NCBI GenBank assembly: GCA_026392455.1
Contig: JAPLCB010000004.1
Span: forward strand, 310,001-374,000
Length of the DNA stretch: 64,000 bases
Reading direction: 5' to 3'
Source: Propionibacteriales bacterium
Lineage (GTDB): Bacteria; Actinomycetota; Actinomycetes; Propionibacteriales; Nocardioidaceae
The notes under the pieces are model-generated. The model was not told where the DNA came from. It made no database searches and worked only from the letters and a program-made list of their open reading frames with translations. Positions 17,498 to 20,484 of the stretch are shown here, piece by piece (position 1 is the stretch's first letter; each line of letters begins with the position of its first letter). The position numbers and the translations under genes are program-made.

Positions 17498-17923
17498 ATG
17501 GACGAGTTCGACCTGCAGGCCCCGCCGTTGGCCAGCCACCTCGGGCGGGGTCTTGGGCAGACCGACGCTGCTTCGGCGTACCGGGTGGCCTACGACCTGC
17601 TCAGCCGCCGCGCCCCCGACGAGGCCTTGGAGCTCATCGGGCCTGCTCTGGCGGAGGATCCCGGCAACACCGGTCTGCGGATCCTGCGCGCCTGGGCCTA
17701 CTTCGTGAAGGTCCGCCTGGGGCCGGCCGAGACCGAGCTGCGCAGACTGGTCGACGAGCACCCGGACGACATCTGGGTCCGGTTCACCCTCGGCCGGACG
17801 CTCGAGCGCCAGTCCCGGTACGACGACGCGCTGCCGCACCTGCGGCTGGCGGCGGCCATGAGCGCCGATCCCGAGCACGAGCTCGCCGTGCTGCGGGTGG
17901 AGCGGCTGGCCGGGCGACTCTGA
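17498..17923 (+). CDS. Tetratricopeptide-repeat protein
   Basis: A 141-residue, all-helical protein with about three TPR-like units (roughly 27-60, 61-94, 95-128), recognisable from Ala/Leu/Gly/Tyr spacing such as AYRVAYDLLSRRAPDEALEL and IWVRFTLGRTLERQSRYDDA. TPR proteins act as protein-protein scaffolds. No signal peptide. It is 37 bp after the SnoaL-like gene and converges on map. Partner unknown. Confidence 0.8.
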   Translation: MDEFDLQAPPLASHLGRGLGQTDAASAYRVAYDLLSRRAPDEALELIGPALAEDPGNTGLRILRAWAYFVKVRLGPAETELRRLVDEHPDDIWVRFTLGRTLERQSRYDDALPHLRLAAAMSADPEHELAVLRVERLAGRL

Positions 17924-17951
17924 CCCCGAGCCGGGCCGGGCGGGGCCGGGG

Positions 17952-18800
17952 CTAGGGGAGGGTCAGGATCTCCGCGCCGGTCTCGGTGACCAGCAGGGTG
18001 TGCTCGAACTGGGCCGAGATCTGCCGGTCCCGGGTCACGACGGTCCAGTCGTCGTCCCACATCTCCCACTCGTGGGTGCCGAGGTTGAGCATCGGCTCGA
18101 TGGTGAACGTCATTCCGGGCTCCATCACGGTGTCGTACGCCGGGTCGTCGAAGTGCGCGATGATCAGCCCGGAGTGGAAGGCCGTCCCGATGCCGTGGCC
18201 GGTGAACTCGCGGACGACGCCGTACCCGAAACGCTTGGCGTAGGACTCGATCACCCGGCCGATCACGTTGATCTGCCGACCGGGCTTGACCGCCTGGATC
18301 GCCCGTCGCAGGGATTCGCGGGTCGCGTCGACCAGTGCGCGGACGTCGTCACCGACTCCCGGGGTGAGGAAGGTGGCGTTGGTGTCGCCGTGGACTCCGC
18401 CGATGAAGGCGGTGATGTCGATGTTGACGATGTCGCCGTCCTGGACCACCCGGCTGTCCGGGATCCCGTGGCAGACCACCTCGTTGGCGCTGGTGCACAG
18501 CGATTTCGGGAAGCCGCGGTAGCCGAGGGTCGAGGGGTACGCGTCGTGGTCGAGGAGGAACTCGTGGCCGATCCGGTCCAGCTCGTCGTGGGTGATCCCG
18601 GGAGCGACGTGCCGCCCGACCTCCGCCAGTGCCTGGGCGGCGATCCGACCGGCGACCCGCATCCGCTCGATCGTCGCAGCGTCCTTGACCTCGGACCCGG
18701 TGTACCGGGCCGGGGCGGGCTTGTCGACGTACTCCGGCCGCTCGATGTGCGCCGGGACGACGCGTCGTGGCGAGAGCGTGCCGGGGGCTACGGGAGTCAC
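17952..18800 (-). CDS. map: Methionine aminopeptidase, type I
   Basis: A 282-residue enzyme that removes the initiator methionine from nascent proteins. The five metal ligands are seen in order: Asp in VNIDITAF, Asp in HGDTNATF, His in GHGIGTAFH, Glu in FTIEPM and Glu in QFEHTLL. The N-terminal extension of about 35 residues with [15 protein letters not shown] is typical of actinobacterial MetAP with a polyproline-type arm. The GTG at 18800 is chosen because TAGACT lies 7 nt upstream and no Shine-Dalgarno is present, so the gene is probably leaderless. It shares a symmetrical promoter with the divergent gene at 18825. Confidence 0.95.
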
Positions 18801-18807
18801 GGGCGTC

Positions 18808-18817
18808 AGTCTAGAGT
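18808..18817. promoter_or_regulatory. Overlapping divergent -10 elements (AGTCTAGAGT)
   Basis: The near-palindrome AGTCTAGAGT reads TAGAGT (18812-18817) on the plus strand and TAGACT (18808-18813) on the minus strand. Each is exactly 7 nt from a start codon: ATG 18825 on the plus strand and GTG 18800 on the minus strand. Neither gene has a ribosome binding site. This looks like one bidirectional promoter feeding two leaderless mRNAs. Confidence 0.7.
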
Positions 18818-18824
18818 CGGCCCC

Positions 18825-19013
18825 ATGGACGAGGAGTTCTGGTACTGCCTGAAGCACCACGAGGTCGAAGGGCGTCAGGGGTGTCGCAACGCCGACCGGT
18901 TGGGTCCCTACCCGACCGCCGACGACGCCGCCCGCGCGCTGGACAAGGTGGCCGAGCGCAACGAGGACTGGGACAACGACCCGGCGTGGAACGAACCCCA
19001 GGACCCGGCATGA
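18825..19013 (+). CDS. Small conserved actinobacterial protein next to map
   Basis: A 62-residue acidic protein. The pattern [12 protein letters not shown], then [12 protein letters not shown] and [11 protein letters not shown] is a conserved actinobacterial small-protein family found beside map and related genes; no function is known to me. His and Cys spacing (C8, H11, H12, C20) might bind a metal. It starts 24 bp from the map start on the opposite strand and its stop overlaps the next gene as ATGA. Confidence 0.85.
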
Positions 19014-19300
19014 CCGACCCAGAAGACCGCCGGGTGACCGATCCGCAACCGCCGGGGCGGATCAAGGACATCCGGGTCTACCGGGACGCGTTCGTCGGCA
19101 TGGGGATGCTGGCGTGCATCCCGTTCCTGATCTGGGCCGACCCCGTGTACGGCGTGTGGACGGGGATCGCACTGTCGGTTGTCTGGGCGCTGCTGCTGGC
19201 CCAGGGCACGCGCTGGTTCATGCCGCACCCGCGCTGGGTGATCTACCTGGCCGTCGCTGCGTTCGGGCTCTGGCTGGTCGCCGTCGTCCTCAACCGCTGA
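19010..19300 (+). CDS. Small membrane protein
   Basis: A 96-residue protein with about three membrane helices (roughly residues 30-45, 48-66 and 74-93) after a polar N-terminus. The ATG at 19010 overlaps the previous TGA (ATGA), so its translation is coupled to the 62-residue gene. No family recognised. Convergent with the sugar dehydrogenase. Confidence 0.75.
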
Positions 19301-19314
19301 GTCTGCTCAGCGCC

Positions 19315-20484
19315 TCACAGGGTCGGGTGCACCCGCAGCACCGCGTCCTGGCCCGAGCCGTTCGACGTCGTGATCAGCAGGTCTCCGTTGGGCGCCTTGG
19401 TCACCGAGCGCAGTCGGCCGGACGTCTGCAGCGCCGCTGGGGTGCGTGTCCAGAGCAGCTTCCCGGCCTGGTCGAACTTCATGAAGATGACCTTGTTGGC
19501 CTTCAGGGTGGCCACGGCGAGGGTGCCGTTCAGGGAGCCCCACTGGGCGCCGCTGACCCAGGTCGCGCCGGAGGTCGCCACGGTCGGGTCGCCGGACCTC
19601 CACCGGGCGCCGTACTGGGGGCCCGGGAGCGCGTAGTTGGTCATCGGCGGGGACTCGTCGTACCCGGGACCCGGTCGCCAGCCGAAGTTCCCGCCGGACA
19701 CCAGCCGATTGACCTCGTCGTCGCGGTACGTCCCGTGCTCGACCGACCAGAGGCTGCCGTCGGCGCGCTGGGTCAGGCCCTGAACGTTGCGGTGGCCGTA
19801 GGTCAGGATGTAGCGGCGCACCTTCGACGCGGCGTTCGGCCACGGGTTGGTCGGCCACGGTGCGCCGGTGAAGCGGTTCAACCGCAGTGTCTTGCCGCCG
19901 AAGGAACGCAGGCTCTGCGCGTTCGGGGTCTGGGCGGCGTCGCCGGTGCCGACGATCAGGGCGCCGGTGCGGGTGATCAGAAGTCGACAACCGCCGTGAC
20001 GACCCGTGCTGGTCGGGAACCCGAGTACCAAGGTGCGCAGGTACTTCACCGCGGTGTACCCGGCGTTCAGCTCCCACGCGACCACCCGGACGTCGTGCCC
20101 GCCGTCGGCCTTCACCCAGCCCGAGCAGGTGTAGATCCGTCGGTTGTCGCTGAACGCGGGGTCGACGGCGAGGCCGAGCATCCCGGTCTCGCCGGCTGCC
20201 CAGATCTTCGCCGACGGGAAACCGCCCAGCACCCGCTTGCTGCTCCCGGTGGCCACGATCAGCCGCCGGTTGACACGCTCGTCGATCAGCAGCCGACCGC
20301 CTGGCAGCACCTGGACGTCCCACGGGATGTCCAGGCCGGTGACCTGCTGGGTGACCGAGAGCGACGGGATCGCGGCACCCCTGGCGGTGGGGGCCGGGGT
20401 GGAGGCCACCACCGGGGAGCCCGTCGGAAGGACGAGGGCCGCCGTGGCGGCGAGTGCTGTGGTCAGGTACCCGAGTCGACGCAT
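19315..20484 (-). CDS. Secreted PQQ-dependent sugar dehydrogenase-like protein
   Basis: A 389-residue beta-propeller protein of the glucose/sorbosone dehydrogenase family (soluble PQQ-dependent aldose dehydrogenases). It has a clear signal peptide (MRRLGYLTTALAATAALVLP) and a mature domain with GLDIPWDVQVLPGG, GETGMLGLAVDPAF, YGHRNVQGL and SVEHGTYRDDEVN, the last carrying conserved catalytic-site residues. It probably oxidises a sugar or related alcohol outside the cell if PQQ is available; some homologues have no known cofactor. ATG 20484 is supported by TAATGT 7 nt upstream (leaderless); the -10 overlaps the stop codon of the upstream methyltransferase gene. Confidence 0.88.
   Translation of the reverse strand: MRRLGYLTTALAATAALVLPTGSPVVASTPAPTARGAAIPSLSVTQQVTGLDIPWDVQVLPGGRLLIDERVNRRLIVATGSSKRVLGGFPSAKIWAAGETGMLGLAVDPAFSDNRRIYTCSGWVKADGGHDVRVVAWELNAGYTAVKYLRTLVLGFPTSTGRHGGCRLLITRTGALIVGTGDAAQTPNAQSLRSFGGKTLRLNRFTGAPWPTNPWPNAASKVRRYILTYGHRNVQGLTQRADGSLWSVEHGTYRDDEVNRLVSGGNFGWRPGPGYDESPPMTNYALPGPQYGARWRSGDPTVATSGATWVSGAQWGSLNGTLAVATLKANKVIFMKFDQAGKLLWTRTPAALQTSGRLRSVTKAPNGDLLITTSNGSGQDAVLRVHPTL

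Follow-up and report, generated by a model that had tools for sequence, protein, structure and literature searches.

A putative bidirectional -10 element shared by the divergent, leaderless-looking genes map and a small-protein gene in Nocardioidaceae

Bidirectional promoters with symmetric -10 elements have been described by Warman et al. (2021, as cited in PMC10268837 and PMC12825309). As defined in PMC10268837 their divergent starts lie 7-25 bp apart, and in the usual form given there the starts are separated by 18 bp with -7T and -11A reciprocally paired. For the five bidirectional promoters tested in E. coli, PMC12825309 states that basal transcription is too low for competition, and that strong activation of one direction can bring competition about. 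The second class of described systems is that of the leaderless genes of actinobacteria. TANNNT is given as their signal and as that of M. tuberculosis promoters (PMC3160421, PMC3898074); in the account of PMC3898074 a conserved -35 was not found, and closely juxtaposed divergent promoters are called a common feature.

The locus compared here with these systems lies in a window of 64,000 nucleotides (the whole stretch of DNA that was analysed), between map and a divergent small gene (Table 1). The first-pass annotation had read TAGAGT on the plus strand and TAGACT on the minus strand, each 7 nt before a start codon and neither accompanied by a Shine-Dalgarno (SD) sequence, and direct reading confirmed this to the base. 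The two hexamers overlap on opposite strands by the symmetry of ANNNTANNNT, with the TA at 18812-18813 common to both as -12T/-11A on either strand. The start codons of the two genes are 25 bp apart with 24 bp between them, and the predicted transcription starts are likewise 25 bp apart, or 23 bp if each is placed one base upstream of its start codon. A search of 18500-19100 gave no -35/-10 consensus promoter, and one of 17900-19400 no Rfam match.

As at the bidirectional promoters of PMC10268837, one near-symmetric -10 would be offered to polymerase in either orientation, and the predicted distance of 23-25 bp falls inside the 7-25 bp of that definition. Unlike the usual E. coli type, the two directions have the -12/-11 TA step in common, and both RNAs are predicted to be leaderless mRNAs. 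Since its TA is shared, its hexamers are offset by 4 and its starts are predicted at a distance of 23-25 bp, where the usual form has paired -7T/-11A and 18 bp, the map element is a variant and not the usual form. The resemblance to the actinobacterial leaderless genes described in PMC3160421 and PMC3898074 lies in TANNNT placed shortly before ATG or GTG without an SD sequence, whereas in the cases described there each -10 belongs to one gene. The M. tuberculosis pair prpD/Rv1129c resembles the map pair in that both divergent neighbours are leaderless, but its starts, given in PMC3898074 as 1254630 and 1254510, are 120 bp apart, which implies two separate promoters. A literature search, made mostly on titles and the beginnings of abstracts and largely among papers outside subscription, found no paper on two leaderless genes with one common -10. 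From the sequence comparisons given below, the map element appears to be a conserved new variant of the known bidirectional promoters, combined with leaderless initiation.

Table 1. Features of the map/small-gene locus (window positions) and type I methionine aminopeptidase (MetAP) genes of the same genome (contig positions)
Feature	Position	Strand	Basis
Shared bidirectional -10 element (putative), AGTCTAGAGT, form ANNNTANNNT	18808..18817	both	read directly; kept in relatives
Plus -10 hexamer TAGAGT, small-gene side	18812..18817	+	read directly; conserved in relatives
Minus -10 hexamer TAGACT, map side	18813-18808	-	read directly; conserved in relatives
7-nt spacer, minus -10 to map GTG, without SD	18801..18807	-	read directly
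7-nt spacer, plus -10 to small-gene ATG, without SD	18818..18824	+	read directly
map, type I methionine aminopeptidase, 282 aa, GTG start 18800-18798	17952..18800	-	TIGR00500, PF00557
Small gene, 62-aa acidic protein, ATG 18825	18825..19013	+	without family match
96-aa hydrophobic ORF, ATG overlapping small-gene TGA (ATGA, 19010-19013)	19010..19300	+	read directly
Window's map	C3:327961-328689		TIGR00500, own genome (G000)
Second type I MetAP gene	C6:212611-213357		TIGR00500, own genome (G000)
Third type I MetAP gene	C3:634564-635319		TIGR00500, own genome (G000)

The sequence itself, the conserved geometry, cases of loss with replacement and the leaderless signal of the group make it likely that the 10-bp element is a true bidirectional promoter core of the housekeeping type, yielding two leaderless mRNAs of which one is chosen at each firing; the transcription starts, the mutual exclusion and the leaderless translation are what we infer from them. 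RNA polymerase would load on the shared element in either orientation, since the TA at its centre is self-complementary and would serve as -12T/-11A on both strands, the -7T being supplied by each flank of the shared TA. Initiation would occur on both sides at the start codon or one base before it, and the products would be a leaderless map mRNA beginning with GTG and a leaderless mRNA for the 62-aa protein, on which the overlapping 96-aa ORF is probably co-transcribed. The two open complexes would overlap and could not form together, so that each firing would amount to an either/or choice at one site; given the low basal firing in E. coli, such exclusivity may matter little at low rates. The map/small-gene pair offers a simple system for testing whether two genes are coupled by mutually exclusive initiation, with the insertion and loss cases in relatives as ready natural mutants. 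Such pairs are also relevant to annotation, because their start codons and promoters fit one 30-bp stretch. The ATGA overlap suggests translational coupling of the 96-aa ORF on the small-gene mRNA.

The map product was assigned to the type I methionine aminopeptidases by TIGR00500 (294.1 bits against a cut-off of 171.35) and by a match to PF00557. Three such genes, all over the TIGR00500 cut-off, were present in the genome, so that the essentiality attributed to this copy in the first-pass annotation is not supported. The 62-aa protein had no match in Pfam, NCBIfam or PHROGs, and the best E value in a PDB profile search was 1.3. Its structure was modelled with modest confidence (mean pLDDT 73.4, pTM 0.52), and a fold search with this model gave no match with E below 0.001. 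In the alignment of the small proteins C8, H11, H12 and C20 were missing in some relatives (rows L026, L029 and L030) while RLGPY and RN stayed; metal binding is therefore not a family-wide trait.

By protein search of the own genome and 38 relatives, the small gene was present in 30 of 39 genomes, and in 28 of those 30 loci map lay divergent beside it. A set of 110 loci was assembled from these 30 and 80 loci of named organisms (the best 80 of 156); the best among the named ones was that of Nocardioides marmoriginsengisoli (small protein 83% and map 89.6% identical). No map hit was contained in the fetched stretch at 13 of the 110 loci (two had less than 1.2 kb upstream, and the other 11 were without map within about 1.5 kb), and at one locus map was on the same strand as the small gene, so that the linkage is common and not universal. 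After these exclusions 96 divergent loci remained, of which 88 were non-identical, loci from the best 80 of 156 again being among them. TANNNT stood 6-9 nt before map in 86 of the 88 (7 nt in 45, 6 nt in 25, 9 nt in 11 and 8 nt in 5), and in 52 of the 88 the arrangement was dual, the small gene beginning 6-8 nt past the same element; because the loci are related by descent, these counts are not independent. The script called 52 dual loci, and the number used with the tree was again 52 after two hand edits: L048 was dropped, its 8-nt candidate start lying upstream of a likelier one, and L050, at which the script had not placed the map start, was added since the printed sequence has the arrangement. 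Where script-called loci alone were used the number was 51. Among these 51 the spacings to map and to the small gene were 7 and 7 nt in 17 loci, 7 and 6 in 12, 6 and 6 in 10, 7 and 8 in 5, 6 and 7 in 4, and 8 and 7 in 3; both varied within 6-8 nt although 6-9 was permitted. As judged from these alignments, the dual -10 arrangement at the map locus is beyond chance.

The dual state was mapped on a tree of the map proteins, made by a quick method with SH-aLRT support alone and with 33 of 85 inner branches open. Four changes were needed, against a mean of 28.2 after shuffling, and this is compatible with one gain and three losses. The clade was taken as the branch of 61 loci (SH-aLRT 94) that includes the 52 dual loci and a sister group of five. 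In 11 loci outside it, from genomes of families f3 and f4 and from two Actinopolymorpha, TANNNT stood 9 nt before map and the small gene was farther off, which makes the map promoter look older and its shared use later.

These outside loci bear on an alternative in which the promoter is the map-directed -10 alone, the plus hexamer being a by-product of constraint and the small gene being transcribed from elsewhere. Loci outside the clade do keep the map -10 with an SD-like leader before the small gene (L020 and L025-L028, by eye), and in the Aeromicrobium loci, also outside, the small gene has -10-like sites of its own. Within the clade, in contrast, the plus -10 was intact in 58 of the 60 loci with an element called, and at both losses (L065 and L101) a separate TANNNT stood 6 nt before the small gene. 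L065, from Nocardioides pinisoli, carries an insertion of about 100 bp next to the element, in the interval that separates map from the small gene; map retains TACACT there and the small gene has its own TAGTGT 6 nt before ATG. Over the 86 loci with an element called, which are related, the plus hexamer was intact in all 51 with a small-gene start at 6-8 nt and broken in none, whereas without such a start it was intact in 9 and broken in 26; L092 has a candidate start 9 nt past a broken hexamer. A map-directed promoter alone is thus very unlikely. Through the conserved paired geometry and the cases of loss with replacement, the reading as a bidirectional promoter is supported by comparison, which indicates that the one element is under selection in both directions, with a protein gene on each side.

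What is conserved is a pair of TANNNT hexamers with one TA step in common, and not the palindrome that had drawn notice in the window. The sequence AGTGTAGTTT was found in 44 of the 51 dual loci and matches its own reverse complement at four of ten positions, namely the A, T, A, T of ANNNTANNNT. The window belongs to the three loci with AGTCTAGAGT, which is self-complementary at eight of ten positions and differs from the common form solely at N positions; rarer forms were AGTGTAGGTT (two loci), AGCGTAGTGT (one) and AGTGTACGTT (one). The first-pass annotation had held that a palindrome not conserved in relatives would speak against its proposal: the palindrome is indeed not kept, but the paired -10 elements are. 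The core columns were 88-100% conserved, four of them being fixed by definition, with the flanking G at 92%, the flanking C at 96%, one further column at 80% and the other flanking and spacer columns at 43-71%. The middle bases of the hexamers were not those preferred locally (TAGAGT ranked 17, TAGACT 9 and TACACT 35 of 64), which, like the missing -35/-10 consensus promoter, counts against the promoter reading.

The 12-mer GAGTGTAGTTTC, which corresponds in relatives to window positions 18807-18818, is conserved more than TANNNT on either strand demands, as would be expected if the element were the operator of a dimeric regulator, its symmetry due to protein binding and the promoters overlapping it. 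However, the symmetry of the common form is confined to the four -10 positions, and an exact copy of the 12-mer was present in 17 of 81 family genomes, a single one in each, with 1 for the reversed control; four of these 17 copies were checked against the coordinates of the small-gene locus, and all four were at the map locus. With symmetry beyond the four positions not kept and no second exact copy per genome, the operator reading is disfavoured and has a very slim chance of being correct. On the reading as a bidirectional promoter, the conservation of the N positions may, as a guess, reflect a balanced strength of the two directions.

Leaderless signals were counted in the window and in two relatives, G019 and G020, which were sampled as 40 stretches of 20 kb; the starts used were the candidate ones of coding-like ORFs. 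TANNNT peaked at spacings of 6 and 7 nt in this sample, with 5 and 1 of 56 starts in the window, 29 and 8 of 425 in G019, and 23 and 8 of 328 in G020; each remaining spacing within 0-20 nt had 0-4, and the reversed motif gave 0-5 per spacing without a peak at 6-7 nt. That both genes use the element with one or both transcripts carrying leaders, through drift of the start site or a start further upstream, fits seven clade loci with both -10 elements kept and the likely small-gene start behind a leader (L009, L023, L047, L048, L054, L077 and L079), but is hardly to be expected at a spacing of 6-7 nt that is the leaderless peak of the group. The peak and the comparison of the 88 loci together back the original proposal of one bidirectional -10 for two leaderless-looking genes.

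The arrangement was not as singular as it had first been taken to be, since other gene pairs of the genus have the shared-TA geometry between them as well. The pattern CAC-N7-ANNNTANNNT-N7-ATG was searched in 24 genus genomes with the reversed pattern as control, giving 30 matches against 6 and at least one match in 17 of the 24. The map locus accounted for seven of the 30. On each side of 18 of the other 23 there was an ORF of 44 aa or more, which was not so for five; 14 of the 18 remained once four had been set aside because their minus-side ORF was short or doubtful. Nor are the 23 independent of one another: a PIG-L-like ORF was common to five (by motif scan, one being put to Pfam), and two others shared an ORF that by eye looked antitoxin-like, with no coding sequence opposite. 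Eight shared-TA pairs were compared with Pfam, and seven had matches on both sides: PIG-L/DUF4307, epimerase/pyridine nucleotide-disulphide oxidoreductase, BKACE/Tyr deacylase, ferredoxin/Rv0428c-like acetyltransferase, OsmC/peptidase M1, SDR/SDR and trehalase-like/CinA. The eighth matched DeoC on one side only. CTAGGAT-type shared-TA elements were seen between PIG-L-like and DUF4307-like genes at L121, L125 and L126 (Pfam for L121 only).

Within 864 kb sampled, 12 divergent leaderless-like pairs lay within 120 bp, against one for a control motif; two of the 12 were of the shared-TA type (that of the window and one in L156). The class-wide sample of 197 genomes gave 119 shared-TA matches against 102 for the control. 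Fifteen genomes of the own family (f1, probably Nocardioidaceae from the names of its loci) contributed 15 against 1, and family f29, which has small genomes, 13 against 27; the class sample outside these two families gave 91 against 74 (p 0.11), with no clear excess outside the family. Pairs of -10 elements set side by side or slightly apart (offsets 6, 7 and 8) had 0 matches and 0 control matches in 24 genomes each, which is weak evidence because two more bases are fixed in these patterns. It is conceivable, at somewhat under an even chance, that the family has a recurrent class of promoters made of shared-TA elements, ANNNTANNNT with a start codon about 7 nt away in either direction. In that class a one-site either/or choice between two leaderless mRNAs would, over long evolutionary times, fix the relative output of gene pairs, map/small protein and PIG-L/DUF4307 among them.

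The usual 18-bp geometry, as TANNNTA between start codons, was also searched in the 24 genomes. There were 12 sites, each listed on both strands, against 20 for the control, and hence no excess; both start types were allowed, so the start codons differ from those of the shared-TA search. At four of the 12 sites the ORFs on the two sides were each 89 aa or longer (script lengths), one of these sites having an atypical plus side (GC3 0.41), and a few of these pairs may be real too. Five of the 12 (L182, L185, L187, L188 and L190) were similar GGAA...TTCC palindromes with a central TANNNTA, and were one-sided, with 7-27 aa opposite a transporter ORF that we take to be EamA-like; these palindromes look like an operator or a palindromic promoter. 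At L181 the 18-bp type of TANNNTA lies between two long divergent ORFs that by eye resemble dTDP-sugar genes (rmlB/rmlA-like), and these two are a candidate for a leaderless pair with the usual geometry.
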